Origin: Cryobacterium sp. MP_M3
Lineage (GTDB): Bacteria > Actinomycetota > Actinomycetes > Actinomycetales > Microbacteriaceae
Direction of reading: 5' to 3'
NCBI RefSeq assembly: GCF_015752155.1
Contig: NZ_JADOVI010000001.1
Location: forward strand, 62,001-126,000
DNA: 64,000 nucleotides
The notes under the pieces are model-generated. The model worked only from the letters and a program-made list of their open reading frames with translations, searched no databases and had not been told where the DNA came from. Below, piece by piece: positions 9,874 to 24,967 of this stretch. The first letter of the stretch is position 1. Each line of letters starts with the position of its first letter. Both the position numbers and the translations under genes were made by a program.

Positions 9874-10934
9874 GCCGCGGCCCTCCGGCTCTTGATCAGC
9901 ACGATGAAGACGGGCACCCCGATGAGCGCGGTGATGATGCCGACGGGCAGTTCACGCGGGTCGAAGACGGTGCGGGCGAGGGTGTCGGCCACGACGAGGA
10001 AGAGCGCGCCGAAGATCACGGTCAGCGGCAGCAGCCGACGGTGGCCCGGCCCGCTCAGCCCGCGCACGAGGTGCGGCAGGATCAGCCCGACGAAACCGAT
10101 CGCGCCGCTCACGGCGACCATGGCCCCGGTGAGCAGGGCGACCGCGCCGAGCAGCGCCCACCGGGTGGCGTTGACGTTGATGCCGAGGGAGGCTGCGGCC
10201 GTGTCGCCGAACGCGAACGCGTCCAGCCGGGTGGCCGAGAGCACGATCCCGGTGCCCACGACCACGAGCGCGCTGCCGGAGATGAGCACGCTGGTCCAGG
10301 AGCTGCCGGCCAGGGAGCCCAGCAGCCAGTTGAGGATCTCCCGGTAGGAGTCGCCCTTGGCCGACCAGAAGATGACGAAGGATGTCCCGGCCGCGCCGAG
10401 CTGGGCGATCGCGAGTCCGGAGAGCACCGCCCGGCCAGGGGTGATCGTGCCGCCGACCCTGGCGATGCTCAGGGTGGCGACCAGGGCGGCCAGTGCGCCG
10501 AGGAACGCCGCGGCCGGCAGGGCGAAGGCGACGCCGAGGATGACGACGCAGACCGCGCCGAGCGACGCCCCGCTGGACAGGCCGAGCAGGTAGGGGTCGG
10601 CGAGCGGGTTGCGGGTGACGCTCTGCATGACGGCCCCGGAGAGCGCGAGCCCCGCGCCGACCGCGGCCGCGGTCAGCACTCGCGGCAGGCGCAGCTGCCA
10701 GACGATGGAGTCGGTCAGCGGCGGGACATCCGTCATTCCGGGCAGGCCCAGGTGGCGGCCGACGCTCGCGAGCACGTCGGAAAGCCCCACGTCGGCCGGG
10801 CCGACGGCGACGGCCGCGGTGCAGACGAGCAGCAGCGCCAGCACCGACGCCGCGACGAGGCCGAGGTAGCGCCCGCGCGCCGCCGCCCGTCCGCCGTCCG
10901 TCCGCTCGCCCGCCGTCACGGTGTCCCCTGTCAT
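9864..10934 (-). CDS. ABC transporter permease (FecCD/BtuC type), proposed F420-0 transporter
   Basis: A 356-residue protein of the FecCD family with about ten membrane spans. The diagnostic stretches are LRLPRVLTAAAVGAGLALSGAVMQSVTRNPLADPYLLG and, near the end, GAIGFVGLILPHLVRGLSGPGHR. It ends with RELPVGIITALIGVPVFIVLIKSRR. It works with the adjacent ATPase and lipoprotein. The ATG at 10934 lies 12 bp after the binding-protein stop. Homologues move siderophores, heme and cobalamin; the gene setting points to F420-0. Confidence 0.85.
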   Translation of the reverse strand: MTGDTVTAGERTDGGRAAARGRYLGLVAASVLALLLVCTAAVAVGPADVGLSDVLASVGRHLGLPGMTDVPPLTDSIVWQLRLPRVLTAAAVGAGLALSGAVMQSVTRNPLADPYLLGLSSGASLGAVCVVILGVAFALPAAAFLGALAALVATLSIARVGGTITPGRAVLSGLAIAQLGAAGTSFVIFWSAKGDSYREILNWLLGSLAGSSWTSVLISGSALVVVGTGIVLSATRLDAFAFGDTAAASLGINVNATRWALLGAVALLTGAMVAVSGAIGFVGLILPHLVRGLSGPGHRRLLPLTVIFGALFLVVADTLARTVFDPRELPVGIITALIGVPVFIVLIKSRRAAAWA

Positions 10935-10946
10935 GCGGTCTCCCGG

Positions 10947-11966
10947 CTACTTGGACTTCTGCTTGTCGAGCGCGGCCAGCTGGTCGATGGCCGACCCGGC
11001 GGCCTCCACGTTGCGGATGCCGGCCTCGGTGGCCGCGAACGGCAGCACGATGTAGCGCTTGTTCTTCACCGCATCCAGCCCCTGGGTCGCCGGGTTCGAC
11101 TCGAGCGTGGCGATCTTCGACGCCGCGGTGTTCCAGGTGGCGTCGACGAGCACGATCACGCTCGGGTTCGCGGCGATGACGGATTCCCAGCCCACCGAGG
11201 TCCAGGTGTCGTGCACGTCGGCGAACACATTGGTCAGGCCGGCGGCCTTCATGATCATGGCGGGCGAGCCGATCCCGGCGCCGACGTAGGGGCTGTCGGT
11301 GCCGCTGGAATACCAGAGTGCCGTGGTCTTCGCATCGGCGGGGGCAAGGGCGGCCAGCGCCTTCTCCTGCGTCTTCACGAGCTTGTCCGCGGCATCCGCC
11401 CGGCCGAAGATGGCGCCGGCCTCGGCGATCTCCGCGAACACGGAGTCGAACGTCAGCGGGTCGGGCATGTAACCGGCGCCCTTGCACGCGGCGGGGGAGA
11501 CGTAGCTGCCGATGCCGAGGCCCTCCAGCTGGCCGCGCTCGCCGACGCCGTCGGCCGTGAAGTTGGACTCCCAGCCGCCGTAGACGAAGTCGGGCGTGAG
11601 GTCCAGCACGGCCTCCTGGCCGGGCACGAAGTCGCTGACCACGTTGAGGCCCTTCCCGGCCGCGGCCAGGGATGCCGGCAGCGGGCCGTCGAGGAACGCC
11701 GAGCCGACGATGCGGTCGCCGAGGCCGAGCGCGAGCAGCAGCTCGGTGGTGGACGACTTGATCGTCACGACGCGCTGGGGCGCCGCGGCCACGGTCACGG
11801 CGGTGCCGCAGTTGTCGAGCGTGACGGGGTACCCCGCCGGGGCTTCGGTCGCGCCGCTCCCGGGGGTCGCCCCGCCCGCGGCGCCGCCGGCTCCGGCGCA
11901 TCCGCCCAGCATCAGGGCGACGGATGCCGCGCCCGCGACGGAAAGGAGAATACTTCGACGGTTCAT
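10947..11966 (-). CDS. ABC transporter substrate-binding lipoprotein, proposed F420-0 binding protein
   Basis: A 339-residue periplasmic-binding lipoprotein. The N-terminus MNRRSILLSVAGAASVALML is followed by the lipobox GGC (LMLGGCAG), so it is exported and lipid-anchored. The mature part has the FecB/BtuF pattern: PQRVVTIKSSTTELLLALGL, LDLTPDFVYGG and NPSVIVLVDATWNT. The open frame continues to 12227, but that extension covers an intergenic palindrome. The ATG at 11966, with AAAGGAGAATAC running the wrong way inside the gene, lacks a strong ribosome site (AACCTCACG upstream), so the start rests on the signal peptide. It is the first gene of the operon ending in cofD. Confidence 0.85.
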   Translation of the reverse strand: MNRRSILLSVAGAASVALMLGGCAGAGGAAGGATPGSGATEAPAGYPVTLDNCGTAVTVAAAPQRVVTIKSSTTELLLALGLGDRIVGSAFLDGPLPASLAAAGKGLNVVSDFVPGQEAVLDLTPDFVYGGWESNFTADGVGERGQLEGLGIGSYVSPAACKGAGYMPDPLTFDSVFAEIAEAGAIFGRADAADKLVKTQEKALAALAPADAKTTALWYSSGTDSPYVGAGIGSPAMIMKAAGLTNVFADVHDTWTSVGWESVIAANPSVIVLVDATWNTAASKIATLESNPATQGLDAVKNKRYIVLPFAATEAGIRNVEAAGSAIDQLAALDKQKSK

Positions 11967-12195: not shown

Positions 12196-13584
12196 CTAGG
12201 CCCATCTCGTTTCGGGCGGGCGCGCACCGGGAGCGGGGAGGAGCGGGCCGGGTCCCGGGCGGCGCACCACCGCGGCGAGGGCCCGCGCGACCTCCGTCAC
12301 GTCGCCGTCGAGCGCCCCGACGGTCACCCGGATGAACGCCTCCGGGCGGTCCTCGGCCAGGAACGGCGCGCCCCCGGCCACCCGGATGCCAGACGCCGCC
12401 AACTGCACGATGGCATCCCGTTCGTCGACCACCGGAAGCCAGGTGTTGATGCCGTCCGCCTGCCCGGTCGGCCAGCCGAGCCCGGTCAGGGCGTCGGCCA
12501 GGGCCTTCTGCCGCGCGAAGTAGATCCGCCTGGCCTCACCGATCTGGGCGATGCTGTCGCCGTGCGTGAGCAGGTCGTGCAGGATCGACTGCAGCATCCG
12601 GCTCGTCCAGCCGGGCCCGAGCATCCGTCTGGCCACGATCCGGTCCACGAGCGCCGCCGGGCCACCGAGGGCGGCGATGCGCAGGTCGGGGTCGTGCGAC
12701 TTCGAGTAGCTGCGCACGTGCAGCACCCGGCCGGGCAGCCAGCGGCCGAGGCTCACGTCGGGGGCCACGCTGATCTCGCCGGAGTGGTCGTCCTCGATCA
12801 CGACGGTCTGCGCGTTGCGCTGGTGCACGCCGAGCAGCCTCGCCAGTTCCTCGGCCCGCGCGGGCGGCATCGACGCCCCGGTCGGGTTGTGCGCGCGCGG
12901 CTGCAGGATGACCGCGACCGGCGACTGCGCGAGGGCGGCGGCGAAGGCGGCCGGCACGATCCCGTGCTCGTCGACCGGCACGGGCAGGCGTTCGATGCCG
13001 ACCTGGTCCAGGAGGTCGAAGAACGGGGGGAAGCCCGGGTCCTCCACGATGACCCGGTCGCCGAACCGGGCCACCGCGTCGAGGCTGCGGGAGATGGCGT
13101 CGAGGGCGCCGTCGACGACCGTGATCGACTCGGCCGGGAACGGCCAGGATGCCCGCAGCACCGCGAGGAGCTCCGGGATCACCGGCAGCTCCTGGTAGAC
13201 GACGGTGGCGGCCCGCTGGGACACCCGGGAGAGCGCCGGGCCGAGATCGGGCAGGAGCTGCGGGTCGGGCGTTCCCCGGGACAGGTCGATCCTGGCCTCG
13301 CGGTGGTAGCCGGCCATCGACTGGCTGCGGGCCGGCAGCCAGCGCGGCGCCGCCTCGAGCACGAAGGTGCCGCTGCGGCCGCGGGAGACGATCAGGCCCA
13401 CCGCGGAGAGCGCCTGCCAGGCGTGGCTGACCGTCGCCGGGCTCACCGCCAGGGCCGCCGCCAGTGCGCGCACGGTGGGCAGCCGGTCGCCGGGGGCGAG
13501 CCGGCCCGAGCTGATCAGGCGGCCGAGCGCGGCCGCGATCCCGGCGGGAGTGCGGTGCTCGACCTCGTCGATAACGGTTTGCAT
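12196..13584 (-). CDS. MocR-type transcriptional regulator (GntR HTH fused to class I aminotransferase domain)
   Basis: A 462-residue PLP-linked regulator. Residues about 10-75 are a winged helix (GRLISSGRLAPGDRLPTVRALAAALAVSPATVSHAWQAL, read in parts). Residues about 110-450 are an aminotransferase fold with LQPRAHNPTG, the VIEDDHSGE aspartate and the PLP lysine in SYSKSHDPDLR. The start MQTVIDEVEHRTP at 13584 has AAGGGG 3 nt upstream; the open frame reaching 13737 would run through the divergent promoter. MocR proteins usually sit beside and control genes of amino acid, vitamin or amine metabolism, binding an amine through PLP. The divergent pyrimidine/beta-alanine operon is the likely target. 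Confidence 0.88.
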   Translation of the reverse strand: MQTVIDEVEHRTPAGIAAALGRLISSGRLAPGDRLPTVRALAAALAVSPATVSHAWQALSAVGLIVSRGRSGTFVLEAAPRWLPARSQSMAGYHREARIDLSRGTPDPQLLPDLGPALSRVSQRAATVVYQELPVIPELLAVLRASWPFPAESITVVDGALDAISRSLDAVARFGDRVIVEDPGFPPFFDLLDQVGIERLPVPVDEHGIVPAAFAAALAQSPVAVILQPRAHNPTGASMPPARAEELARLLGVHQRNAQTVVIEDDHSGEISVAPDVSLGRWLPGRVLHVRSYSKSHDPDLRIAALGGPAALVDRIVARRMLGPGWTSRMLQSILHDLLTHGDSIAQIGEARRIYFARQKALADALTGLGWPTGQADGINTWLPVVDERDAIVQLAASGIRVAGGAPFLAEDRPEAFIRVTVGALDGDVTEVARALAAVVRRPGPGPLLPAPGARPPETRWA

Positions 13585-13775
13585 GACCCCTTGCCTCCGG
13601 CTGGTTTGGACGACAGGATGATTAACGCGTGCGTCACACACAGAAACAGAACTGAAATGTTTACGTCGAAGAATAACAAACACGGACAACGCAGTCCGAT
13701 TCGACTCAACTGATTCGGCGATGCGACTCCCGGCCACAGGGCCAGCTCAGCGCCGAGCTCGATGTGGAGGCAAGG
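13585..13775. promoter_or_regulatory. Divergent promoter region between the MocR regulator and the pyrimidine operon
   Basis: 191 bp without a gene, clearly AT-richer than the rest (for example 13640-13680, with GAAATGTTTACG and GAATAACAAACACGG). The hexamer GATTCG occurs twice in direct orientation at 13698-13703 and 13712-13717, 14 bp apart. MocR proteins often bind direct repeats, so this pair is a candidate operator. The exact -35/-10 boxes are not clear to me. GGAGGCAAGG at 13767-13775 is the ribosome site of the first operon gene. Confidence 0.45.
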
Positions 13776-14654
13776 ATGACCGGGGACACCAGCACCACCG
13801 ACGGCCGCGCAATCGTGCGGGCCGCCATCACCCAGACCGACTGGACCGGCGACCAGGAGTCGATGATCGCCAAGCACGAGGGATTCGTGCGCACGGCGGC
13901 CGAGGCCGGCGTGCAGGTGATCTGCTTCCAGGAGCTCTTCCACGGGCCGTACTTCGGCATCGTGCAGGACCCGAAGTACTACGACTACGCCCAGAGCGTG
14001 CCCGGCCCGTTGGTCGAGCGATTCCAGAAACTCGCCGCGGAGCACAAAATGGTGATCGTGCTCCCCGTCTACGAGGAGGAGCAGCCCGGCGTGCTCTACA
14101 ACACCGCCGCCGTGATCGACGCCGACGGCAGCTACCTCGGCAAGTACCGCAAGCACCACATCCCGCACCTGCCCCAGTTCTGGGAGAAGTTCTACTTCCG
14201 CCCCGGCAACGGCGACTACCCCGTCTTCGACACCATGGTCGGCCGCATCGGCGTCTACATCTGCTATGACCGGCACTTCCCCGAGGGTTGGCGGGTGCTC
14301 GGCCTGAACGGCGCCGAGATCGTCTTCAACCCCTCGGCCACCAAGCCCGGCCTCTCCAACCGGCTCTGGGAGCTCGAGCAGCCGGCCGCCGCGGTCGCCA
14401 ACCAGTACTACATCGGCGCGAACAACCGCATCGGCACCGAGAGCCGCGAGTTCGGCGACGAGGCGGTCACCTTCTACGGCAGCTCCTACTTCGTCGACCC
14501 GCGCGGCAATTACGTCGGCGAGGTGGCGTCGACGGATGCCACGGAGATCGTCATCCGCGACCTCGACCTCGGCGTCATCCGCGAGGTGCGCAACTCGTGG
14601 CAGTTCTACCGCGACCGCCGCCCCGACTCCTACGAGCCGATCGTCGAACCCTGA
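13776..14654 (+). CDS. Beta-ureidopropionase-type nitrilase-family amidohydrolase
   Basis: Hydrolyses an N-carbamoyl amine, most likely N-carbamoyl-beta-alanine to beta-alanine, CO2 and ammonia, the third step of reductive uracil breakdown. The 292 residues carry the nitrilase triad: E53 in ICFQELFHGPYF, K126 in GKYRKHHIP and C163 in YICYDRHFPEG. SATKPGLSNRLWELEQPAAA and NNRIGTE also match beta-alanine synthase relatives. The ATG at 13776 follows GGAGGCAAGG; an in-frame GTG at 13764 is less likely. It is the first gene of the operon and precedes dihydropyrimidinase by 23 bp. An N-carbamoyl-D-amino acid hydrolase role cannot be excluded. Confidence 0.88.
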   Translation: MTGDTSTTDGRAIVRAAITQTDWTGDQESMIAKHEGFVRTAAEAGVQVICFQELFHGPYFGIVQDPKYYDYAQSVPGPLVERFQKLAAEHKMVIVLPVYEEEQPGVLYNTAAVIDADGSYLGKYRKHHIPHLPQFWEKFYFRPGNGDYPVFDTMVGRIGVYICYDRHFPEGWRVLGLNGAEIVFNPSATKPGLSNRLWELEQPAAAVANQYYIGANNRIGTESREFGDEAVTFYGSSYFVDPRGNYVGEVASTDATEIVIRDLDLGVIREVRNSWQFYRDRRPDSYEPIVEP

Positions 14655-14677
14655 GCCCGGCCGAATAGGAGCGCACC

Positions 14678-16126
14678 ATGACGACAACCCTCATCACCGG
14701 CGGCACCGTTGTGACTTCGACCGGCCGGTCCAGAGCCGACGTGCTCATCGATGGCGAGACGATCGCCGCAGTGCTGGCTCCCGGATCCCGGCTGCTCGGC
14801 GCCGACCTGGCCTCCGGCGCCGACCGGGTGATCGACGCGACCGGCAAGTACGTGATCCCGGGCGGGATCGACGCGCACACCCACATGCAGCTGCCGTTCG
14901 GCGGCACCGCGGCATCCGACACCTTCGAGACCGGCACCCGCGCGGCCGCGTGGGGCGGAACCACCACGATCATCGACTTCGCGGTGCAGAGCTACGGCCA
15001 GCGCGTCTTCGACGGCCTCGCCGCGTGGCACGAGAAGGCCGCCGGCAACTGCGCGATCGACTATGCGTTCCACCAGATCATCGGCGACCTCAACGCGGAT
15101 TCCCTGCAGGCGATGGACGGGCTGCTCGCCGAGGGGGTCTCCAGCTTCAAACTGTTCATGGCCTACCCGGGCGTCTTCTACTCGGATGACGCGCAGATCC
15201 TCAAGGCGATGCAGAAGTCGGCCGAGACCGGGCTGATGACCATGATGCACGCCGAGAACGGGCCGGCGATCGACGTGCTCGTCGGCCAGCTGCTGGCAGG
15301 CGGCAAGACCGACCCGTACTACCACGGCGTCGCCCGGGCCTGGCAGCTCGAGGAGGAGGCCACCCACCGCGCGATCATGCTCGCCAATCTCACTGGGGCG
15401 CCGCTCTACGTGGTGCACGTCAGCGCCAAACAGGCCGTCGCCCAGCTCGCGGCCGCCCGCGACAACGGCCAGAACGTGTTCGGCGAGACCTGCCCGCAAT
15501 ACCTCTATCTCTCCCTCGAGGAGAACCTCGGCGCCCCCGGCTTCGAGGGTGCCAAATGGGTGTGCTCGACCCCGCTGCGCTCCCGGGCCGAGGGGCACCA
15601 GGAACACCTCTGGCAGAGCCTGCGCACGAACGACCTGCAACTGGTCTCCACCGACCACTGCCCGTTCTGCATGAAGGGCCAGAAGGATTTGGGCCTCGGC
15701 GACTTCTCCAAGATCCCGAACGGGATCGGCTCGGTCGAGCACCGCCTCGACCTGCTCTACCAGGGCGTGGTCAGCGGCCGGATCTCACTCGAACGCTGGG
15801 TCGAGATCACCTCCACCACCCCGGCGCGCATGTTCGGCCTCTACGGGAAGAAGGGTGTGATCCAGCCGGGGGCGGATGCCGACATCGTCGTGTACGACCC
15901 CGCCGGCCACACCTCCATCGGCTATGGAACCGATGAGAACGGCGAGCCGACGGGCCGCAGCCACCACATGAACATGGACCATTCGGCCTGGGAGGGCTAC
16001 GAGATCGACGGCCACGTCGACATCGTGCTCTCCCGCGGAAAGGTCGTCATCGCCGAGAACTCCTACCTCGGGGCCAAGGGCGACGGCCGGTTCGTCAAGC
16101 GCGGCCTGAGCCAGTACCTCATCTAG
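14678..16126 (+). CDS. hydA: Dihydropyrimidinase (D-hydantoinase)
   Basis: Opens the ring of dihydrouracil or dihydrothymine (and hydantoins) to N-carbamoyl-beta-amino acids. The 482 residues show the whole binuclear metal site of the amidohydrolase family: H67 and H69 in GGIDAHTHMQ, the carboxylated lysine K158 in SSFKLFMAY, H191 in MMHAENG, H247 in LYVVHVSA and D326 in STDHCPF. The substrate-side YPGVFYSDD fits dihydropyrimidinases. An AGGAGCGCACC ribosome site precedes the ATG. It lies between the beta-ureidopropionase and the LLM oxidoreductase, which argues for the pyrimidine rather than the hydantoin role. Confidence 0.93.
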   Translation: MTTTLITGGTVVTSTGRSRADVLIDGETIAAVLAPGSRLLGADLASGADRVIDATGKYVIPGGIDAHTHMQLPFGGTAASDTFETGTRAAAWGGTTTIIDFAVQSYGQRVFDGLAAWHEKAAGNCAIDYAFHQIIGDLNADSLQAMDGLLAEGVSSFKLFMAYPGVFYSDDAQILKAMQKSAETGLMTMMHAENGPAIDVLVGQLLAGGKTDPYYHGVARAWQLEEEATHRAIMLANLTGAPLYVVHVSAKQAVAQLAAARDNGQNVFGETCPQYLYLSLEENLGAPGFEGAKWVCSTPLRSRAEGHQEHLWQSLRTNDLQLVSTDHCPFCMKGQKDLGLGDFSKIPNGIGSVEHRLDLLYQGVVSGRISLERWVEITSTTPARMFGLYGKKGVIQPGADADIVVYDPAGHTSIGYGTDENGEPTGRSHHMNMDHSAWEGYEIDGHVDIVLSRGKVVIAENSYLGAKGDGRFVKRGLSQYLI

Positions 16127-16139
16127 GGCAGGGGACAGC

Positions 16140-17156
16140 ATGGATTTCGGAGCAGTACTCCAGACCAACCCGCCGTCGGCCCGCGTCGTGCAACTCGCCC
16201 AGCTCGCCGAGGTGCACGGCTTCAGCCACGTCTGGACCTTCGACTCGCACCTGCTCTGGCAGGAGCCCTATGTGATCCACAGCCGCATCCTCGCCGAGAC
16301 CCGCAGGATCATGGTCGGCCCCATGGTCACCAACCCGGCCACCAGGGACTGGACCGTGACGGCGTCGACCTACGCCACCCTGAACGAGATGTACGGCAAC
16401 CGCACCATCTGCGGCATCGGCCGCGGCGACTCCGCGGTGCGGGTCACCAACGGGGCGCCCACCACGCTGAAGACGTTGCGCGAATCGATCCATGTCATCC
16501 GTGAACTGGCGAATTCGCGCTCGGTGGAGCACAACGGCGCCACCCTCCGGTTCCCGTGGAGCACGGGGTCCAGCCTCGAGGTGTGGGTGGCCGCCTACGG
16601 GCCGCTCGCGCTCAAGCTCGCCGGAGAGGTCGGCGACGGCTTCATCCTGCAGATGGCCGACCTCGACGTGGCCGAGTGGATGATCGGCACCGTGCGGAAG
16701 GCCGCGGCGAACGTGGGACGCGACCCGGAGTCGATCAGGTTCTGCGTCGCCGCGCCGATGTACATCGGCGACGACTGGGAGCACATGCGCAACCAGTGCC
16801 GCTGGTTCGGCGGCATGGTCGGCAACCACGTCGCCGACATCGTCGCCAAGTACGGCACCGACTCCCACGTGCCCAAGGCCCTCACCGACTACATCGCCGG
16901 CCGTAGCGGCTACGACTACAACCAGCACGGCCGCGCCGGCAACGCGCACGCCGACTTCGTGCCCGACGAGATCGTGGACCGGTTCTGCCTGCTCGGCACG
17001 TCGAAGGACCACATCGAGAAGCTGCAGGCCCTCAAGGAGCTCGGGGTCGACCAGTTCGCCGGCTACCTCCAGCACGACAACAAGGAGGAGACCCTGCGGG
17101 TTTACGGGGAGACCGTGATCCCTGCCCTCACCGATCCCATCGTGGCGAAGCTATGA
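16140..17156 (+). CDS. LLM-class oxidoreductase, F420- or flavin-dependent, of the pyrimidine operon
   Basis: A 338-residue luciferase-fold protein. MDFGAVLQTNPPSARVVQLA, the WTFDSHLLWQEPY segment, CGIGRGDSAVR and VWVAAYGPLALKLAGEVGDG match a subgroup of putative F420-dependent oxidoreductases close to methylenetetrahydromethanopterin reductase (the CPS_4043-like family). It follows dihydropyrimidinase by 13 bp, with a GGCAGGGGACAG ribosome site, and its stop overlaps the next start (ATGA). The operon has every later step of reductive pyrimidine breakdown but no PreT/PreA or DPYD gene. A role in reducing uracil or thymine, or in oxidising a modified pyrimidine, is therefore inferred; cofactor and substrate are unproven. 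Confidence 0.8.
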   Translation: MDFGAVLQTNPPSARVVQLAQLAEVHGFSHVWTFDSHLLWQEPYVIHSRILAETRRIMVGPMVTNPATRDWTVTASTYATLNEMYGNRTICGIGRGDSAVRVTNGAPTTLKTLRESIHVIRELANSRSVEHNGATLRFPWSTGSSLEVWVAAYGPLALKLAGEVGDGFILQMADLDVAEWMIGTVRKAAANVGRDPESIRFCVAAPMYIGDDWEHMRNQCRWFGGMVGNHVADIVAKYGTDSHVPKALTDYIAGRSGYDYNQHGRAGNAHADFVPDEIVDRFCLLGTSKDHIEKLQALKELGVDQFAGYLQHDNKEETLRVYGETVIPALTDPIVAKL

Positions 17157-18058
17157 CCACGCCCACCACGCCCCGGCCCCGCCGCGGACCGCTTCCCGCC
17201 CGCCGGTTCGTCGTCGGCGCGCTTGGGCTGGTGCTGCTCGCCGGGCTCTGGGAGCTCTACAAGCTGCTCGGCCCGGCGGACGGCGTCGTGGTCGCCGGCG
17301 TCACCGTGCTGCCGCGCACCAGCGACCTGGCCATGCCGCACCTCTGGGTGATGGCCGGGCGGGCGCTCGAACCGGTCACCGGCGCGGGCAACGCGGCGCC
17401 GCTCTGGCAGGCCGTCGTCGACGCCTCCCTGTTCACCCTCGGCATCTCCGCGGTCGGCTGGCTCGTCGGCGTCACCGTCGGCCTCGCGCTGGCGCTCCTG
17501 ATGCAGCGGTTCCGGCTGGCCGAGGCGGCCGTGCTGCCCTGGATCATCCTCAGCCAGACCGTGCCCCTGATCGCCCTGGCTCCGCTCGTGCGGCGCTGGG
17601 GAACCCAGATCCAGTTCGGCGCGTTCAGCTGGGAGAGCTGGATGTCGGTGGCCCTGATCGCCTCCTACCTCGCCTTCTTCCCGGTCTCGGTCGGCGCCCT
17701 CCGGGGCCTCGGCTCGCCCGACGCCAACCACGTCGACCTGATGCACTGCTACTCCGCCGGCTGGTGGAAGACCCTCTGGCGGCTGCGGCTGCCGGCGAGC
17801 GTCGGCTACCTGCTGCCCGCGTTGCGCCTCGCCGCGGCCAGCGCCGTGATCGGCAGCGTCGTCGCCGAGGTGTCGATCGGGCTGCGCGGCGGCATCGGCC
17901 GGATGATCGTCGAATACGCCGGCGCGGCCGGCGGCGACCCAGGCAAACCGTGGGCGCCGATCTTCGGCTCGGTGCTCGTCGGGCTCGTCGCCGCCGGGTT
18001 CGTCGGGCTGATCGGGCTCGGCCTCCGCCGGTTCCGGCGCGGGGAGGTCGCGGCATGA
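17153..18058 (+). CDS. ABC transporter permease (NitT/TauT family), pyrimidine operon
   Basis: A 301-residue integral membrane protein with about six spans. It has the binding-protein-dependent permease signature (EAA-type loop) around GALRGLGSPDANHVDLMHCYSAGWWKTLWRLRLPASVGYLLPALR. It overlaps the LLM gene by 4 bp and the ATPase gene by 4 bp. With the second permease it probably forms a heterodimeric channel, as in NMT1/THI5-type importers of pyrimidine-like ligands. The ligand here is probably a pyrimidine base, nucleobase derivative or carbamoyl/ureido compound, judged from the operon. Confidence 0.85.
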   Translation: MTTPTTPRPRRGPLPARRFVVGALGLVLLAGLWELYKLLGPADGVVVAGVTVLPRTSDLAMPHLWVMAGRALEPVTGAGNAAPLWQAVVDASLFTLGISAVGWLVGVTVGLALALLMQRFRLAEAAVLPWIILSQTVPLIALAPLVRRWGTQIQFGAFSWESWMSVALIASYLAFFPVSVGALRGLGSPDANHVDLMHCYSAGWWKTLWRLRLPASVGYLLPALRLAAASAVIGSVVAEVSIGLRGGIGRMIVEYAGAAGGDPGKPWAPIFGSVLVGLVAAGFVGLIGLGLRRFRRGEVAA

Positions 18059-18912
18059 GCGCGCCGGAAGCGATCCCGGAACCGGCCCCGGTGCACGGCA
18101 AAGCCGCGAGCCTGGCCGTGGACGTGCGCGGGGTGAGCCGCGTGTTCGCCGGCCGGAAGGGGGCATCCGTCACGGCCCTCGACTCCGTCGGCCTCACCGT
18201 GGAGCCCGGCGAGTTCGTCTCGCTGATCGGCCCGAGCGGCTGCGGCAAGAGCACCCTGCTGCGGCTGATCGCCGACCTCGACACCCCGACCACAGGCGAG
18301 ATCCGGGTCTTCGGCAAACCGGCCAGGCAGGCCAGGATCGACCAGGACTACGGCATCGCCTTCCAGCAGGCCGGACTGCTGCCCTGGCGCACCGTCAGCG
18401 GGAACATCGAACTGCCGCTCGAACTGCACGGCGCCGGCCGGGCGGCCCGTCGCGCCCGCGCGGCCGAGCTGATCGAGCTGGTCGGGCTGTCGGAGTTCGC
18501 CGGCCACTACCCCGACCAGCTCTCCGGCGGCATGCAGCAGCGGGTGGCGATCGCCCGGTCGCTGGCGGAGAGCCCGAGCCTGCTGCTGATGGACGAACCG
18601 TTCGGCGCGCTCGACGAGATGACCCGGGAGCGGATGCAGAACGAACTCGTGCGGATCTGCGCAGAGACGAGCGCCGCCGTGGTGTTCGTCACCCACTCCA
18701 TTCCCGAAGCCGTCTTCCTCTCCAACCGGGTCGTCGTTCTGGAGCCGCGGCCGGGCCGCATCCGGGATGTCCTCCGGGTCGGCCTCGGCGAGACCGGGGC
18801 GCGCGGCGAGACCCTGCGCGAGGATGAGGAGTTCTTCCACGTCGTCAGCCAGGTGCGCGAGCTGCTGCACGGTGAGGCCCCGGCCGGGGCGAGGGGGGTC
18901 GAGGCCCGGTGA
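18055..18912 (+). CDS. ABC transporter ATP-binding protein, pyrimidine operon
   Basis: A 285-residue NitT/TauT-type ATPase. Walker A is GPSGCGKST, the Q-loop is AFQQAGLLPW, the signature LSGGMQQRVAIAR and Walker B LLLMDEPFGALDE are intact, and the switch histidine lies in VFVTHSIPEA, so it should be active. The ATG overlaps the permease stop (ATGA), and the gene's own stop overlaps the GTG of the next permease. It energises uptake by the two permeases and the downstream lipoprotein. Confidence 0.9.
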   Translation: MSAPEAIPEPAPVHGKAASLAVDVRGVSRVFAGRKGASVTALDSVGLTVEPGEFVSLIGPSGCGKSTLLRLIADLDTPTTGEIRVFGKPARQARIDQDYGIAFQQAGLLPWRTVSGNIELPLELHGAGRAARRARAAELIELVGLSEFAGHYPDQLSGGMQQRVAIARSLAESPSLLLMDEPFGALDEMTRERMQNELVRICAETSAAVVFVTHSIPEAVFLSNRVVVLEPRPGRIRDVLRVGLGETGARGETLREDEEFFHVVSQVRELLHGEAPAGARGVEAR

Positions 18913-19733
18913 GCCAGGCATCCGTTCGGCAGGGCGGCGCCGGCCAGACCGGCCAGACCGGCCAGACCGGCCAGGCCGGCGGGCCGGTGCGCACCGTGCT
19001 GGCGCCGGTCCTGCTGGGCGTGGCCGTCGTGCTGCTCTGGCAGGGGGCGGTCACCCTGCTCGCCATCAAGCCGTTCATCCTGCCCGGGCCGCTGACGATC
19101 GCCGACCAGTTCGGCGCGAACCTGCAGAACGTGGCCAACGGGATGCTCGCCACCGGCCGGAACGCCCTCATCGGACTCCTGATCGGCACCGTGCTCGGGG
19201 TGCTGCTCGCGATCCTCGCCGCGCTCGTGCGCCTGCTCGACGAAATGGCCGCGCCGATCGTCGCCGCCATCGCGGTCGTGCCGATCGTGGCGCTGGCCCC
19301 CGTGCTCTACACGATGTACGGCGCCGGTGCCGAAACTGCCCGGCAGTTCGTGGCGGCGCTCGCCGTGTTCGTGCCCGTGTACTTCAACACCCTCAAGGGG
19401 CTCCGGCAGGTGCGCCCCGTGCACCGCGACCTGATGCGGTCGTATGCGGCCAGCAACTGGCAGGCCACCCGCACCGTGACCCTGCCGACCGCGCTGCCGT
19501 TCGTGTTCACCGGTCTGCGGATCGCCTCCTCGCTTGCCGTCATCTCGGCGCTGATCGCCGAGTACTTCGGCGGCCCGGTCGGCGGCCTCGGCAAATCGAT
19601 CACCTCGTCGGCGTCGAGCAGCAACTACGGGCTGGCCTGGGCGTACGTGCTGGGCTCGATCCTGCTCGGCCTCCTCTTCTATTCGGCAGCGCTCATCGTC
19701 GAGAAGCTCGTCAGCCGCCGGTCCGGCGGATAG
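18909..19733 (+). CDS. Second ABC transporter permease, pyrimidine operon
   Basis: A 274-residue permease of the NitT/TauT type with six likely spans. The cytoplasmic loop is FNTLKGLRQVRPVHRDLMRSYAASNWQATRTVTLPTALPFVFTGLR. The start is GTG at 18909, overlapping the ATPase stop (GTGA). The N-terminus holds a short glutamine/threonine/glycine repeat encoded by four tandem 9-bp units (18942-18977), which could vary in number between strains. It is a different subfamily member from the first permease, so the pore is likely a heterodimer. Confidence 0.87.
   Translation: MSQASVRQGGAGQTGQTGQTGQAGGPVRTVLAPVLLGVAVVLLWQGAVTLLAIKPFILPGPLTIADQFGANLQNVANGMLATGRNALIGLLIGTVLGVLLAILAALVRLLDEMAAPIVAAIAVVPIVALAPVLYTMYGAGAETARQFVAALAVFVPVYFNTLKGLRQVRPVHRDLMRSYAASNWQATRTVTLPTALPFVFTGLRIASSLAVISALIAEYFGGPVGGLGKSITSSASSSNYGLAWAYVLGSILLGLLFYSAALIVEKLVSRRSGG
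18942..18977 (+). repeat. In-frame 9-bp tandem repeat in the permease N-terminus
   Basis: GGCCAGACC occurs three times in a row (18942, 18951, 18960), followed by GGCCAGGCC. It encodes a TGQ-type repeat without changing frame. Confidence 0.7.
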
Positions 19734-19817
19734 GCGTCCGCCGCGTGCGCGCGACGGTCGATGCACCACGATGCACCATCCACAACACAGCCAGGCAACC
19801 ATTTCACGGAGGTAGAC

Positions 19818-20969
19818 ATGAAACACAGCACACGATGGCTGGGCACGATGGGCGCCCTCGCCGCCACCAGCGCCCTCGTCCTCACCGGCTGCAGCACCGG
19901 GACCGCGTCGACGACGGCGACCTCGGGTTCCGGCGGGGACCTCGTCCCGATCACCCTGCAGCTGCAGTGGGTCGCCCAGGCCCAGTTCGCCGGCTACTAC
20001 GCGGCCGTCGACCAGGGCTTCTACAAGGATGAGGGCCTCGACGTCACGATCGCCGAGGGCGCCGCGGACATCGTGCCGCAGGACGTCCTCGCAGCCGGCG
20101 ACGCCGACTACGCCATCTCCTGGGTGCCCAAGGTGCTCGGCTCGATCGAGCAGGGCGCCAACATCACCGACGTCGCCCAGATCTTCGAACGCAGCGCCAC
20201 CACCCAGATCTCGTTCAAGGACAAGGGCATCACCTCGCCCGCCGACCTCAACGGCAAGAACGTCGGCAGCTGGGGCTACGGCAACGAGTGGGAGCTCTTC
20301 GCCGGCATGCAGAAGAGCGGGGTGCAGGTGGGCGACATCAACCTCGTGCAGCAGGCCTTCGACATGAACGGGTTCCTCTCCGGGGACATCGACGCGGCCC
20401 AGGCCATGACCTACAACGAATACGCCCAGGTGCTCGAGACGAAGAACCCGAAAACGGGCGAGCTCTACCAGCCGTCCGACCTCAACGTGATCGACTGGAA
20501 CAAGGAGGGCACGGCCATGCTGCAGGATGCGATCTGGGCCGACGCCGGCAAGCTCGCCTCCGACAAGGACTATGCCGCCAACACGGTCAAGTTCATCAAG
20601 GCGTCGATCAAGGGCTGGATCTACGCGGCCACCGAACCGGAGAAGGCGGCCGGGATCGTCACCGCGGCCGGGTCGCAGCTGCCGGCCGGACACCAGCTCT
20701 GGATGACCAACGAGGTCAACAAGCTGATCTGGCCGTCCACGAACGGGGTCGGCCTGATCGATGCGGCCGCCTGGAAGAACACCGTCGACATCGCGATGAA
20801 CACCAAGAACGAGACCGGCGCCACCATCATCACCGCCGAACCGCCCAAGACGGCGTACTCGAATGAGTACGTGCAGAAGGCGCTCGACGAGCTGAAGGCG
20901 GACGGCGTCGACGTGATGGGCGCCGACTGGAAGCCCATCACGGTCACCCTCACCGAGGGCGGCAAGTAG
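19818..20969 (+). CDS. ABC transporter substrate-binding lipoprotein (NMT1/THI5-like), pyrimidine operon
   Basis: A 383-residue lipoprotein with the signal MKHSTRWLGTMGALAATSAL ending at a lipobox LTGC. The mature protein begins ITLQLQWVAQAQFAGYYAAV, the hallmark of NMT1/THI5-like binding proteins, which bind thiamine pyrimidine precursors, riboflavin precursors and other pyrimidine-like rings. DFKDKGI-type and GSWGYGNEWELFAGM segments follow. The ATG at 19818 has GGAGGTAGAC just upstream; the open frame from 19761 is not used. It lies at the 3' end of the transporter block. A pyrimidine ligand is an inference from family and operon. Confidence 0.87.
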   Translation: MKHSTRWLGTMGALAATSALVLTGCSTGTASTTATSGSGGDLVPITLQLQWVAQAQFAGYYAAVDQGFYKDEGLDVTIAEGAADIVPQDVLAAGDADYAISWVPKVLGSIEQGANITDVAQIFERSATTQISFKDKGITSPADLNGKNVGSWGYGNEWELFAGMQKSGVQVGDINLVQQAFDMNGFLSGDIDAAQAMTYNEYAQVLETKNPKTGELYQPSDLNVIDWNKEGTAMLQDAIWADAGKLASDKDYAANTVKFIKASIKGWIYAATEPEKAAGIVTAAGSQLPAGHQLWMTNEVNKLIWPSTNGVGLIDAAAWKNTVDIAMNTKNETGATIITAEPPKTAYSNEYVQKALDELKADGVDVMGADWKPITVTLTEGGK

Positions 20970-20995
20970 GCTCGCCCCACCGCCTCTCCTGCTGA

Positions 20996-21024
20996 GGCCG
21001 GGTGGTCCACCGGACCGCCCGGCC
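20996..21024 (+). terminator. Strong hairpin between the binding-protein gene and the aminotransferase gene
   Basis: GGCCGGGTGGTCC (20996-21008) pairs with GGACCGCCCGGCC (21012-21024) over 13 bp with one T-G wobble and a 3-nt loop. There is no T-run. It may stop part of the transcripts, or protect the 3' end of the transporter mRNA, so that aminotransferase and dehydrogenase are made at a different level. Confidence 0.55.
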
Positions 21025-21087
21025 CAGCTCCCCGTCCTCCACACAACGCATCTCCTTCACTCAACGCAGAGAAAGAACACGATATTC

Positions 21088-22407
21088 GTGAATGACACCA
21101 CCGCCGCCAGCCTGAACGACGCCGCCTACGAGCTGGACCGGGCCTACGTCTTCCACTCCTGGTCGGCGCAGGCCGCCCTCGCACCGCTCGTGATCGCGGG
21201 CGGAAAGGGGTCCCGGGTCTGGGACTACGACGGGCGCAGCTACCTGGACTTCTCCAGCCAGCTCGTCAACGTGAACATCGGCCACCAGCATCCGGCCGTC
21301 ACCCAGGCGATCATCGACCAGGCCGGCACCCTCGCCACCGTCGCGCCGTCGACCGCGAACCTCATGCGCGGCGAGGCCGCCAAGCGCATCGTCGACCGCG
21401 CCCCGGCCCGCTTCAACAAGGTCTTCTTCACCAACGGCGGGGCGGATGCGATCGAGAACGCGATCCGGATGGCCCGGCTGCACACCGGCCGGGACAAGGT
21501 GCTCTCCACCTACCGCTCGTACCACGGCAACACCGGCGCGGCCATCGTGGCGACCGGCGACTGGCGGCGCATCCCGAACGAATTCGCGCGCGGGCACGTG
21601 CACTTCTTCGGCCCCTACCTCTACCGCAGCGAGTTCTGGGCGACGACGCCCGAGCAGGAGTCGGAGCGTGCGCTGCGCCACCTCGAGCGCATGATCCAGA
21701 GCGAGGGGCCGGGCACGATCGCGGCCGTGCTGCTCGAGTCGATCCCCGGCACGGCCGGGGTGCTCATGCCGCCGCCCGGGTACCTGGCCGGGGTGCGCGC
21801 GCTCTGCGACCGCTACGGGATCCTCCTGATCCTGGACGAGGTGATGGCCGGCTTCGGCCGCACCGGGCGGTGGTTCGCCTTCGACGGTTTCGACGTGACC
21901 CCCGACCTGATCACCTTCGCCAAGGGCGTCAACTCCGGCTACGTGCCCACCGGCGGGGTGATCATCTCCGAGTCGATCGCGAACGACTTCGAGACCACCG
22001 TCTTCCCCGGCGGACTCACCTACAGCGGGCATCCGCTGGCGATGGCGTCGATCGTGGCCGCCCTCGACGCCATGGAGAACGAGGGCATCGTCGCCAACGC
22101 GGCCCGGATCGGGCGAGACCGGCTCGCGCCGGGCCTCGCGGAACTGCAGGAGAAGCACCCGATCATCGGCGAGGTGCGCGGCGAGGGCGTGTTCTGGGCG
22201 CTGGAGCTCGTGGCCGACCGGGGCACCCGCGCACCGCTGAGCGGCGGCGTGATGGGCCGGATCAAGGCCGAGCTGCTCGCCCGCAACCTCCTGCCCTTCC
22301 TCGCCGACAACCGGATCCACGTCGTGCCGCCGTGCGTGGTCACCGACGACGAGGTCGCCGAGGCCCTGGCCATCTACGACGAGGTCCTCAGCCTCGACCT
22401 CATCTGA
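21088..22407 (+). CDS. Class III aminotransferase, beta-alanine (omega-amino acid):2-oxo acid type
   Basis: A 439-residue PLP enzyme of fold type I. It has the PLP aspartate D250 in ILLILDEVMAGFGRTGR, the PLP lysine K279 in LITFAKGVNSGYVPTGGV, and THE FTNGGADAIENAIRMAR phosphate-binding helix of class III aminotransferases. In this operon it should convert beta-alanine (or beta-aminoisobutyrate) to malonate (or methylmalonate) semialdehyde. The start is GTG at 21088 after AGAGAAAGAAC. It is separated from the transporter genes by a hairpin and followed by the semialdehyde dehydrogenase after 53 bp. Other omega-amine donors are possible. Confidence 0.88.
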   Translation: MNDTTAASLNDAAYELDRAYVFHSWSAQAALAPLVIAGGKGSRVWDYDGRSYLDFSSQLVNVNIGHQHPAVTQAIIDQAGTLATVAPSTANLMRGEAAKRIVDRAPARFNKVFFTNGGADAIENAIRMARLHTGRDKVLSTYRSYHGNTGAAIVATGDWRRIPNEFARGHVHFFGPYLYRSEFWATTPEQESERALRHLERMIQSEGPGTIAAVLLESIPGTAGVLMPPPGYLAGVRALCDRYGILLILDEVMAGFGRTGRWFAFDGFDVTPDLITFAKGVNSGYVPTGGVIISESIANDFETTVFPGGLTYSGHPLAMASIVAALDAMENEGIVANAARIGRDRLAPGLAELQEKHPIIGEVRGEGVFWALELVADRGTRAPLSGGVMGRIKAELLARNLLPFLADNRIHVVPPCVVTDDEVAEALAIYDEVLSLDLI

Positions 22408-22460
22408 CCTGCCCGCCGCCGGCTCCCCCACTCCCACTCGACGAAGAGAAACGAAGGACA

Positions 22461-23960
22461 ATGACTGATCTGCCCTCAATCACCCACTGGATCGACGGGG
22501 CGCCGTTCGATGGAACCTCGACCCGCACCGCGCCGGTCTTCAACCCCGCACTCGGCGCCGTCGCCAAGCACGTGCGCCTGGCCGGCGCCGTCGACGTCGA
22601 CACCGCCGTCGCCTCCGCCCAGGCCGCCTACCCGGCGTGGCGGGACACCTCCCAGGCCCGGCGGCAGGGCGTCATGTTCACCTTCCGCGAGCTGCTCAAC
22701 GCGCGCAAGGGCGAGCTGGCCGACATCCTCACCGCCGAACACGGCAAGGTGACCGCGGATGCCCTCGGCGAGATCGCTCGCGGGCTCGAGGTCGTCGAAT
22801 TCGCCCTCGGCATGCCGCACCTGACCAAGGGCGAGTACTCGGAGAACGTGTCGACCGGTGTCGACGTGTACACGCTGCGCCAGCCGCTCGGCGTCGTGGG
22901 AATCATCAGCCCGTTCAACTTCCCGGCGATGGTGCCGCTGTGGTTCTTCCCGATCGCGATCGCCGCCGGCAACACCGTGGTGCTCAAGCCGAGCGAGAAG
23001 GACCCGTCGGCGTCGAACTGGATGGCCGCCCTGATGACCGAGGCCGGCCTGCCCGCCGGGGTGCTCAATGTCGTGCACGGCGACAAGGAGGCGGTCGACG
23101 CCCTGCTCGTGCACCCCGACGTGCAGGCGATCTCGTTCGTCGGCTCCACCCCGATCGCCAAGTACATCTACGAGACCGCGGCGCACCACGGCAAGCGCGT
23201 GCAGGCCCTCGGCGGCGCCAAGAACCACATGCTGGTGCTGCCGGACGCCGACCTCGACCTGGCCGCGGATGCCGCGGTCAACGCCGGTTTCGGCTCGGCC
23301 GGTGAGCGGTGCATGGCGATCAGCGTCGTGGTGGCCGTCGAACCGGTCGCCGACGCGCTGGTCGCGAAGATCACCGAGCGGTTGAAGGGGCTCAGGGTCG
23401 GCGACGGCATGCGCGGCTGCGACATGGGGCCGTTGATCACCAGTGCGCACCGGGACAAGGTCGCCTCCTACATCGACGTGGCCCGCACCGACGGCGCCGA
23501 GGTCGTCGTGGACGGGCGCGGCATCGAGGTGGACGGCGACGCATCCGGCTTCTGGCTCGGCCCGACCCTGTTCGACCGGGTCGATACCGACTCGGATGTC
23601 TATCTCGACGAGATCTTCGGCCCGGTGCTCTCGATCGTGCGGGTCGGCAGCTACACCGAGGGGCTCAACCTGATCAACCGGAGCCGCTACGGCAACGGCA
23701 CCGCGATCTTCACCAACGACGGCGGCGCGGCCCGGCGCTTCCAGAACGAGGTGCAGGTCGGCATGGTCGGCATCAACGTGCCGATCCCGGTGCCGGTGGC
23801 GTACCACTCGTTCGGTGGCTGGAAGGACTCCCTCTTCGGCGACGCGAAGGCATACGGGCCGGCCGGGATCGCGTTCTACACCCGGGAGAAGGCCATCACC
23901 AGCCGCTGGCTCGACCCCAGCCACGGCGGCATCAACCTCGGCTTCCCCCAGAACGCCTAG
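22461..23960 (+). CDS. mmsA: CoA-acylating methylmalonate/malonate semialdehyde dehydrogenase
   Basis: Oxidises malonate semialdehyde to acetyl-CoA with CO2 release, or methylmalonate semialdehyde to propionyl-CoA, using NAD+ and CoA. The 499 residues carry the catalytic C284 in FGSAGERCMAIS and the oxyanion asparagine in SPFNFPAMVPLW. At the place where ordinary aldehyde dehydrogenases have a general-base glutamate it reads LGGAKNHMLVLPDAD, the hallmark of the MmsA/IolA CoA-acylating group. The ATG at 22461 has GAAGGA 5 nt upstream. As last gene of the operon it feeds the carbon of uracil or thymine into central metabolism. Confidence 0.93.
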   Translation: MTDLPSITHWIDGAPFDGTSTRTAPVFNPALGAVAKHVRLAGAVDVDTAVASAQAAYPAWRDTSQARRQGVMFTFRELLNARKGELADILTAEHGKVTADALGEIARGLEVVEFALGMPHLTKGEYSENVSTGVDVYTLRQPLGVVGIISPFNFPAMVPLWFFPIAIAAGNTVVLKPSEKDPSASNWMAALMTEAGLPAGVLNVVHGDKEAVDALLVHPDVQAISFVGSTPIAKYIYETAAHHGKRVQALGGAKNHMLVLPDADLDLAADAAVNAGFGSAGERCMAISVVVAVEPVADALVAKITERLKGLRVGDGMRGCDMGPLITSAHRDKVASYIDVARTDGAEVVVDGRGIEVDGDASGFWLGPTLFDRVDTDSDVYLDEIFGPVLSIVRVGSYTEGLNLINRSRYGNGTAIFTNDGGAARRFQNEVQVGMVGINVPIPVPVAYHSFGGWKDSLFGDAKAYGPAGIAFYTREKAITSRWLDPSHGGINLGFPQNA

Positions 23961-24001: not shown

Positions 24002-24967
24002 TCAAGGGGTGGCGTGCGGCGGCGCGGTGGCCGAGGTGTGCTCGGCCTGCACCCGCTCGGCCTCGGCCCGCAGCACGTCGACGACCGTGCGCACCGCGAG
24101 GCGCTCGGCCCGGTCGGGGCGCATCAGCGCCACGATCTGCCGCTCGGCGTCGACCCCGCGCAGCGGCTTGAGCACGAGCTTGCCCGGCTGGTCGCCACCC
24201 CAGGTGTAGCGCGGCACGAGCGCAATGCCCAGGCCCGCCATCACGAACGCCTCGATCAGCCGCATGTCCGCGAAACGCTGCGCCACCAGCGCCTGCCCGG
24301 CGCCCTGCTGTTCGATCTGGTGCAGGATGCGTTCGAACGGGTAGCCGTCCGGTGCGCCGATCCAGGTCTCGCCGACCACGTCGGCCGGCCCGATCCAGGC
24401 ACGGGAGGCCAGGCGGTGGTCGGCCGGCAGCCCCACGTCGAGCGGCTCGGTCATCAGCGGGACCACGGTCAGTCCCCGCCCGCCCCAGGGCAGCTGGCCG
24501 CGCAGGCTGTAGGCGAGCACGATGTCGAAGTCGGCGGTCAGCGCGGGGAAGTCGCTCAGCTCCGGGTCCTTGTCGGTGCAGTTCACGACCAGGCCCGGCA
24601 CCGACGCGATCTGCCGCAGCGCGCCCGGTAGCAGCATCTCGCCCGCGGTCGGGAACGTCACCAGGCTCACCTCGCCGGTGGCGTGGTTGCGGAACTCGTC
24701 CCACACCGCGTTCGCCCGGGCGAGGGCGACGGCGACATCGGTCGCACTGCGGGCCAGCGCGCGTCCGGCATCCGTCAGGATCAGGCCACGCCCACTGCGT
24801 TCGGTGAGCGGCAAACCGGCCTCCCGCTCGAGCACCTTGAGCTGCTGCGACACCGCCGATGGCGTGCGGTGGGTGGCCCGCGCGACCTCGGTGATGCTGC
24901 GGCGTTCGGCCAGTTCCCTGAGCAATTCGAGCCTCTGCACATCCATGTAGCTAAGCTTCACACTCAT
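24002..24967 (-). CDS. LysR family transcriptional regulator
   Basis: A 321-residue regulator: a winged helix-turn-helix at about 8-67 (LLRELAERRSITEVARATHRTPSAVSQQL, read in parts) and an effector-binding domain at about 95-300. It is convergent with the pyrimidine operon and divergent from a small membrane-protein gene. The start is ATG at 24967 or ATG at 24946 (MDVQRLELL), the latter closer to family starts. A 25-bp near-palindrome abuts the upstream start and TTGACA lies beyond it (24999-24994, minus strand), so it probably controls itself. Its effector is unknown; control of the neighbouring pyrimidine genes is possible. Confidence 0.85.
   Translation of the reverse strand: MSVKLSYMDVQRLELLRELAERRSITEVARATHRTPSAVSQQLKVLEREAGLPLTERSGRGLILTDAGRALARSATDVAVALARANAVWDEFRNHATGEVSLVTFPTAGEMLLPGALRQIASVPGLVVNCTDKDPELSDFPALTADFDIVLAYSLRGQLPWGGRGLTVVPLMTEPLDVGLPADHRLASRAWIGPADVVGETWIGAPDGYPFERILHQIEQQGAGQALVAQRFADMRLIEAFVMAGLGIALVPRYTWGGDQPGKLVLKPLRGVDAERQIVALMRPDRAERLAVRTVVDVLRAEAERVQAEHTSATAPPHATP

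Follow-up and report, generated by a model that had tools for sequence, protein, structure and literature searches.

Gene Content of the Operon

The DNA analyzed here is a stretch of 64,000 nucleotides (the window) from Cryobacterium sp. MP_M3, taken from contig NZ_JADOVI010000001.1 of a 56-contig genome with a listed completeness of 100%. Between positions 13776 and 23960 it holds nine plus-strand genes, separated by short gaps or overlapping, that together resemble an operon for reductive pyrimidine degradation. One of them encodes a protein of the luciferase-like monooxygenase (LLM) family TIGR03842, which we consider likely, judging by sequence and genomic context, to be an F420H2-dependent uracil/thymine reductase that replaces the usual dihydropyrimidine dehydrogenase (PreTA/DPYD). 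An earlier sequence-only reading of this DNA had described an amidase, a dihydropyrimidinase, the LLM protein, an importer, an aminotransferase, and MmsA clustered on one strand, and the cluster was recovered at the same positions.

The first gene (13776..14654, PF00795) encodes a carbon-nitrogen hydrolase, likely a beta-ureidopropionase. Its best solved relatives are 2vhh (183 bits; titled CG3027-PA, which we take to be fly beta-alanine synthase), the N-carbamoylputrescine amidohydrolase 5h8i (181 bits), and the beta-ureidopropionase 8pt4 (179 bits), so that this comparison with solved structures gives nearly equal scores for the two activities; no NCBIfam model is over its cut-off, the top model, TIGR03381, being below it. 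The amidase stop at 14654 is followed by the start at 14678 of a dihydropyrimidinase gene (14678..16126; TIGR02033, 534 bits versus a cut-off of 393), the single copy over that cut-off in the genome. From the stop of this gene at 16126 it is a short step to the start of the LLM gene at 16140 (16140..17156), whose product matches positions 1–329 of the TIGR03842 profile with 591 bits (cut-off 295), has PF00296 as its sole Pfam domain, and is 98% identical to its counterpart in Cryobacterium sp. HLT2-28. NCBIfam lists TIGR03842 as a "hypothetical equivalog", meaning that no function has been assigned to the family.

The LLM stop overlaps, at 17153–17156, the start of an ATP-binding cassette (ABC) transporter permease gene (17153..18058, PF00528). 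Four-nucleotide overlaps at 18055–18058 and 18909–18912 join this gene to the putative ATPase of the importer (18055..18912, a 285-residue open frame between the permeases that was read by eye) and the ATPase to a second permease (18909..19733, PF00528). The substrate-binding protein that follows is of the NMT1/THI5 type (19818..20969, PF09084), with solved relatives that include THI5 and the formyl-aminopyrimidine binding protein 3ix1. Next comes a class III omega-amino acid aminotransferase (21088..22407, PF00202), a proposed beta-alanine transaminase; its best solved relative is the taurine:2-oxoglutarate aminotransferase 6jix (E = 2e-107), which fits an omega-amino acid substrate such as beta-alanine. 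The row ends with MmsA, a CoA-acylating (methyl)malonate-semialdehyde dehydrogenase (22461..23960; TIGR01722, 680 bits versus a cut-off of 448.5) that has enzymes of this activity as its best solved relatives. The motif GGAGG precedes the ATG codons at 13776, 18055, and 19818, though across the whole window sites of this kind occur no more often than expected by chance.

Genes for F420 synthesis and proposed F420-0 transport had been placed upstream of the operon by the sequence-only reading, and they are indeed there. CofE, the F420-0:L-glutamate ligase, lies on the plus strand (3230..3958; TIGR01916, 224 bits versus a cut-off of 181). On the minus strand are CofD, the 2-phospho-L-lactate transferase (8066..9076; TIGR01819, 342 bits versus 257), and a putative F420-0 ABC transporter that consists of an ATPase (9073..9873; TIGR03873, 348.5 bits, under the cut-off of 372), a permease (9864..10934; TIGR03869, 460 bits versus 437), and a substrate-binding protein (10947..11966; TIGR03868, 439 bits versus 392; its start at about 11966 was chosen by eye from a lipoprotein-like signal). 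Judging by these predicted genes, the host is able to make or import F420.

Search for the Usual First Enzymes

The earlier statement that no PreTA is present is borne out for PreA by a profile search of the genome: no gene is over the cut-off of model NF006183, the best match reaching 98 bits against the 335 required. This match is a dihydroorotate-dehydrogenase-like gene on contig 2, and after it comes a pyrK-like frame (named by eye). Two genes are over the cut-off of Pfam DHO_dh, one on contig 2 and one on contig 6, and the PreA model gives the latter 30 bits; on these scores we rejected a PreA elsewhere in the genome. The dihydroorotate-dehydrogenase-like gene and pyrK-like frame lie at G000:C2:221548-223520 (L009:13549-15521), apart from the other DHO_dh match on contig 6. 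The window LLM protein itself is without the dihydroorotate dehydrogenase (DHOD)-type FMN domain and the ferredoxin domains that define PreA/PydA/DPYD, and lies outside that family.

RutA is an LLM-family enzyme that acts on uracil. Its profile, TIGR03612, has no match over cut-off in any of 12 chosen genomes, the window's among them, and the window LLM protein is absent from the TIGR03612 matches in its own genome at E 1e-3; a RutA identity for this protein was rejected accordingly. Of the 11 LLM-family genes over cut-off in the genome, it is the TIGR03842 one that adjoins the only dihydropyrimidinase over cut-off.

Linkage of TIGR03842 to Pyrimidine Genes

The expectation that the LLM gene would keep together with a dihydropyrimidinase and an amidase in other families was confirmed by survey. 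Among 80 named loci found with the window LLM protein (LLM 81–98% identical), a dihydropyrimidinase gene is immediately 5' of the LLM gene in 80/80, and an amidase gene is present in 76; in each of the four loci without one, the LLM gene begins less than 2 kb from the upstream end of the contig. These loci come from close relatives, and for this reason an evenly sampled, phylum-wide draw of 396 Actinomycetota genomes was made as well, 79 of which have TIGR03842 over cut-off. Leaving aside the window's own, one locus per TIGR03842 genome (78 loci) was searched to a distance of about 8.5 kb, with proteins from the window and from Leisingera as tblastn queries; 50 of the 78 have full flanks, here a minimum of 6.5 kb on the upstream and 2.5 kb on the downstream side. 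A dihydropyrimidinase is found near the LLM gene in 57 of the 78 loci (43 of the 50 with full flanks), an amidase in 67 (47 of 50), and an NMT1 or NCS1 transporter in 57 (39 of 50).

The dihydropyrimidinase linkage is seen in 15 of 16 Actinomycetota families, with family f33 (0/3) the one without it, and in clades on either side of the deepest split of the tree, a split that is weakly supported in a tree whose inner supports are often low. It is still seen at 45%–50% LLM identity, with altered gene order and non-homologous partners: the amidase is either a CN-hydrolase or an M20 protein, and the transporter either an NMT1 importer or an NCS1 nucleobase symporter. The typical row of family f18 (L143 was scanned) runs dihydropyrimidinase, aminotransferase, M20 carbamoylase, NCS1 nucleobase symporter, LLM. 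In family f5, NCS1 occurs in 8 of 11 loci, and L194 has a PucR-type regulator in addition, while MmsA stands between the dihydropyrimidinase and LLM genes in 7 of the 8 loci of family f29.

Several loci show local variation. Cryobacterium loci L049, L050, L052, L066, L068, and L097, and likewise L047 and L059, are without the NMT1-type importer or hold pieces of it only; their enzymes are retained, so the importer looks dispensable. Locus L148 has an aminotransferase-M20-NCS1-LLM row without a dihydropyrimidinase match; a PF04199 "putative cyclase" hydrolase close to this row (L148:14058-14741) might take the place of that enzyme. L197, of family f33, has a GMC-type oxidoreductase near the LLM gene besides MmsA. 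The LLM gene at G225:C1:2193491-2194476 (L209), in a single-contig genome, comes as two overlapping matches, which hints at a broken or mis-sequenced copy.

Two of the 396 Actinomycetota genomes have PreA over cut-off, and neither belongs to the 79 TIGR03842 genomes. G208, the first of these, has a row of a PreT-like frame (GltD-type, below cut-offs), PreA, an M20 amidase, and a dihydropyrimidinase, and no LLM match occurs over the 19-kb stretch that holds this row. In gene content, G208 is thus a direct example of the swap, with PreA where other genomes have the LLM gene. In the second genome (G191) the PreA contig is only 3,757 bases long, too short to judge its neighbors.

Co-occurrence with F420 Genes

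In a set of 199 Microbacteriaceae genomes, TIGR03842 is over cut-off in 92, and all 92 have CofE over cut-off, versus 18 of the 107 others. Phylum-wide, a CofD match at E 1e-3 is found in 73 of the 79 TIGR03842 genomes; the CofD cut-off is passed in 202 of the 396 genomes. That actinobacteria may scavenge F420-0 is an existing idea, reflected also in the names of the NCBIfam families. Some Microbacteriaceae and Arthrobacter may have a reductase that runs on scavenged F420-0. CofE extends F420-0 (PMC8764529, in the part available), and that part of the paper makes no mention of a transporter or of salvage. In Arthrobacter loci L081, L089, L093, L106, and L108, the operon is preceded, at a distance of a few kb, by CofE and a second LLM gene, and the same stretches have no CofD match; they are possibly F420-0 salvage neighborhoods.

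The family also occurs on plasmids. Thirteen records of the PLSDB collection, whose gene tables are incomplete, match the LLM protein at E 1e-40. Eleven of these, ten from Leisingera and one from Paracoccus, make up the evidence from Pseudomonadota, and one of each genus was examined in detail. On both the Paracoccus alcaliphilus (NZ_CP067126.1) and the Leisingera aquaemixtae (NZ_CP081034.1) plasmids, the genes cofG-cofH-cofD-cofC-cofE-npdG-TIGR03842 are contiguous, TIGR03842 standing in Leisingera at the end of a complete F420 operon; the TIGR03842 proteins are 43% and 42% identical to the window LLM protein, respectively. In Leisingera the divergent neighbors are transhydrogenase alpha and beta subunits, an aminotransferase, an M20 "Zn-dependent hydrolase", a dihydropyrimidinase, an NCS1 nucleobase:cation symporter, and a DUF1330 protein; in Paracoccus an ABC importer comes after the F420/TIGR03842 genes. 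On an unannotated Streptomyces plasmid, tblastn finds genes for an amidase, a dihydropyrimidinase, and an LLM protein, and a Rhodococcus plasmid match has 34% identity. A DUF1330 protein is encoded near the F420/TIGR03842 genes of both plasmids examined in detail (L221:7710-8003 in Leisingera; L140:3083-3373 in Paracoccus, where PF07045 was confirmed).

Relationship to F420-Dependent Enzymes

The six best solved relatives of the LLM protein, all aligned nearly end to end, are methylene-tetrahydromethanopterin reductases (Mer). Three of the six are titled as coenzyme F420-dependent, and the F420-dependent FGD1 is next in the list. We infer from the Mer homology and from the operons that the LLM protein binds F420 and uses it in catalysis.

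Conservation was measured on 53 non-redundant TIGR03842 members, down to 42% identity, drawn from the 156 of 161 loci with a usable LLM match. At least 97% conservation is found in 69 columns, with at most one member deviating in each. Both Alphaproteobacteria are among the 53, and the conserved residues are thus common to Actinomycetota and Alphaproteobacteria, which suggests one substrate. Mer acts in a different pathway, and a comparison with a single Mer sequence (8qpm, 32% identity over the full length) shows 34 of the 69 near-invariant columns identical, including G60 and V63-T64-N65-P66, while 35 differ, including W40, R95, S98, R101, W149, Y153, Q171, and R221; further residues that differ from 8qpm are W222, N229, H230, Y251, R255, Y258-D259-Y260, and C283. 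As a guess, C283 is a candidate proton donor, in view of its conservation and of the part that a cysteine plays in mammalian dihydropyrimidine dehydrogenase.

Proposed Pathway and Alternatives

That the LLM protein is an F420H2-dependent entry to the pathway had been proposed from the sequence alone, and the genomic tests run (linkage, F420 co-occurrence, the lack of PreA and RutA over cut-off, and the plasmid F420 operons in a second phylum) support it. We infer that uracil or thymine is the substrate and F420H2 the donor, with chemistry as follows. CofD and CofE would make or finish F420, part of which is perhaps imported by the putative F420-0 transporter, and host F420 reductases would reduce it to F420H2. 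Inside the TIM-barrel pocket, F420H2 would pass a hydride from the deazaflavin C5 to C6 of uracil or thymine, and an acid of the protein would protonate C5 to give dihydrouracil or dihydrothymine. The dihydropyrimidinase would then open the dihydropyrimidine ring, the amidase would release CO2 and ammonia to leave beta-alanine or beta-aminoisobutyrate, the aminotransferase would yield (methyl)malonate semialdehyde, and MmsA would convert this to acetyl- or propionyl-CoA. Steps two to five are established for the enzyme families named, and the presence of an omega-aminotransferase and MmsA in the operon points to a product, beta-alanine or beta-aminoisobutyrate, like that from uracil and thymine.

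A broader statement seems to us probable as well, if made a little more guardedly: TIGR03842 would reduce uracil and thymine with F420H2, would be the chief starting point of reductive pyrimidine degradation in Actinomycetota, and would amount to an equivalent of dihydropyrimidine dehydrogenase that is free of iron-sulfur clusters, as the presence of the family in 79 of 396 genomes versus 2 of 396 for PreA suggests. It would serve in Rhodobacterales also, there as a plasmid island with its own F420 factory.

Several findings weigh against such a role. No measured activity for any TIGR03842 protein was found in the open-access literature. The late pathway genes are kept less regularly than the early ones: near the LLM gene, an aminotransferase is found in 49 of 78 loci (35 of the 50 full-flank loci) and MmsA in 17 (12 of 50). 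Seven of the 50 full-flank loci (L148, L166, L182, L186, L197, L198, and L220) have no dihydropyrimidinase within about 8.5 kb; at two of them, L197 and L198 of family f33, MmsA alone matched of the pathway genes searched, with no dihydropyrimidinase or amidase match near the LLM gene, and a different use of the TIGR03842 family is possible there. No dihydropyrimidinase was found in the Paracoccus alcaliphilus plasmid stretches examined. The nearest solved relative of the NCS1 symporter is the hydantoin permease Mhp1, so the symporter leaves the identity of the imported ring unfixed. PreA is so rare in the phylum that its absence from the 79 TIGR03842 genomes is not statistically informative, and the association of CofE with TIGR03842 (Fisher p about 8e-39) is uncorrected for kinship. 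Finally, CofD has no match in 19 of the 92 TIGR03842 Microbacteriaceae genomes or in six of the phylum-wide genomes (G119, G160, G173, G259, G318, and G327), these six being drafts of 190 to 580 contigs with 81%–96% completeness. CofE is present in each of the 19, and the binding protein of the putative F420-0 importer is over cut-off in 17 (of the two others, G417 shows fragments of it where contigs begin and for G568 none is listed), so that they look like F420-0 scavengers rather than exceptions.

The alternative to which we give most room, though we think it unlikely, is an F420H2-dependent reductase of some other pyrimidine or hydantoin-like ring, such as a modified base, with the same amidohydrolase and amidase downstream. 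The dihydropyrimidinase and NCS1 families are promiscuous, and such a ring would agree with the kinship of the symporter to Mhp1, with the resemblance of the NMT1 binding protein to thiamine-pyrimidine binders, and with the partner swaps in several clades and the many loci without MmsA nearby. The omega-aminotransferase and MmsA of the window point instead to beta-alanine or beta-aminoisobutyrate, and no hydantoin racemase is present in the annotated Leisingera stretch (where, as noted, the gene tables are incomplete). It is quite improbable that the LLM protein is a RutA-like flavin-dependent monooxygenase acting on pyrimidines with FMNH2 and oxygen. RutA does belong to the LLM family and act on uracil, and many LLM proteins are FMN monooxygenases, weak matches to two of the solved structures (8cbb and 9hav) being seen here; the TIGR03612 results above speak against it, however. 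The product of RutA needs no dihydropyrimidinase, yet that enzyme lies directly upstream in every one of the 80 named loci, and an FMN enzyme would leave the CofE of all 92 Microbacteriaceae genomes unexplained.

We give very little credence to an LLM enzyme that acts at another step or oxidatively, for example in F420-dependent oxidation of an aldehyde or a dihydropyrimidine, with dihydrouracil imported or produced by a different reductase. A few f33 loci with LLM and MmsA genes and no dihydropyrimidinase would suit such a role, but every later step already has a candidate enzyme in the window operon, the NADPH-dependent F420 reductase and transhydrogenase of Leisingera suit consumption of F420H2, and the G208 PreA operon has no LLM gene. 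Least credible of all is a neighborhood due to chance or common descent with no functional link. The 80 named loci are closely related, which would suit this reading, but the link persists among distant LLM proteins, other gene orders, and non-homologous partners, and from 11 LLM-family genes in the genome it is this one that adjoins the sole dihydropyrimidinase over cut-off; a chance neighborhood was rejected on the 80/80 named loci together with the phylum-wide linkage.

Comparison with Known Systems

An F420H2-dependent pyrimidine reductase would leave most of the Pyd pathway (with PreTA, DPYD, or the ferredoxin-dependent PydAc) as it is: dihydropyrimidinase, beta-ureidopropionase-like amidase, omega-aminotransferase, and semialdehyde dehydrogenase are alike, and the same overall conversion is predicted for the window operon. 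The first enzyme differs, being an LLM TIM-barrel protein with no DHOD-type FMN domain and no iron-sulfur domains in place of PreTA/DPYD, and with F420H2 as the proposed donor where PreTA, DPYD, and PydAc use NAD(P)H or ferredoxin. Both NAD(P)H- and ferredoxin-dependent PydA types are described in the available part of PMC7332683; the PydA candidates there were compiled by DHOD and ferredoxin domains, a search by which an LLM enzyme would be missed. RutA shares with the window protein the LLM superfamily and a place in pyrimidine catabolism and differs as an oxygenase whose profile does not list it among its matches.

Two further systems are comparable by description. A luciferase-family protein in a reductive uric acid pathway of Chloroflexota is likewise a putative F420-dependent PF00296 protein and stands in for a PydA-like or YgfK dearomatizing flavoenzyme; it differs in its proposed substrate, yanthine, and in its phylum (PMC12507026, in excerpts). 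NpsU / SSGG-03002, of napsamycin and mureidomycin, is a putative F420/FMN oxidoreductase reducing the uracil C5-C6 bond, with a role in antibiotic biosynthesis and 42 homologues given; for mureidomycin this reduction was shown by genetics and nuclear magnetic resonance, and an in vitro assay failed (PMC10714638, in excerpts). Neither luciferase nor F420 is mentioned in the available part of PMC4016543. No paper that refers to TIGR03842 by name was found in the open-access literature, and among the titles listed there we found no report of F420-dependent pyrimidine reduction in catabolism, though one may have been published elsewhere.

If the proposed role is true, it gives a function to a widespread family of unassigned role, and adds to a textbook pathway a non-homologous enzyme and a third type of donor, F420H2, after NAD(P)H and ferredoxin. 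It would explain actinobacterial pyrimidine degradation without dihydropyrimidine dehydrogenase, and would provide a physiological reason to keep or scavenge F420 outside mycobacteria and methanogens. One may also speculate that an iron-sulfur-free reductase might act on fluoropyrimidines.

Flanking Regulators

Two minus-strand regulator genes border the operon. A MocR-like regulator with an aminotransferase domain (12196..13737, start uncertain; PF00392 and PF00155) is divergent from it and PtsJ-like, under cut-off. At the downstream end is a LysR-type regulator (24002..24967), which matches several LysR models, all below their cut-offs.

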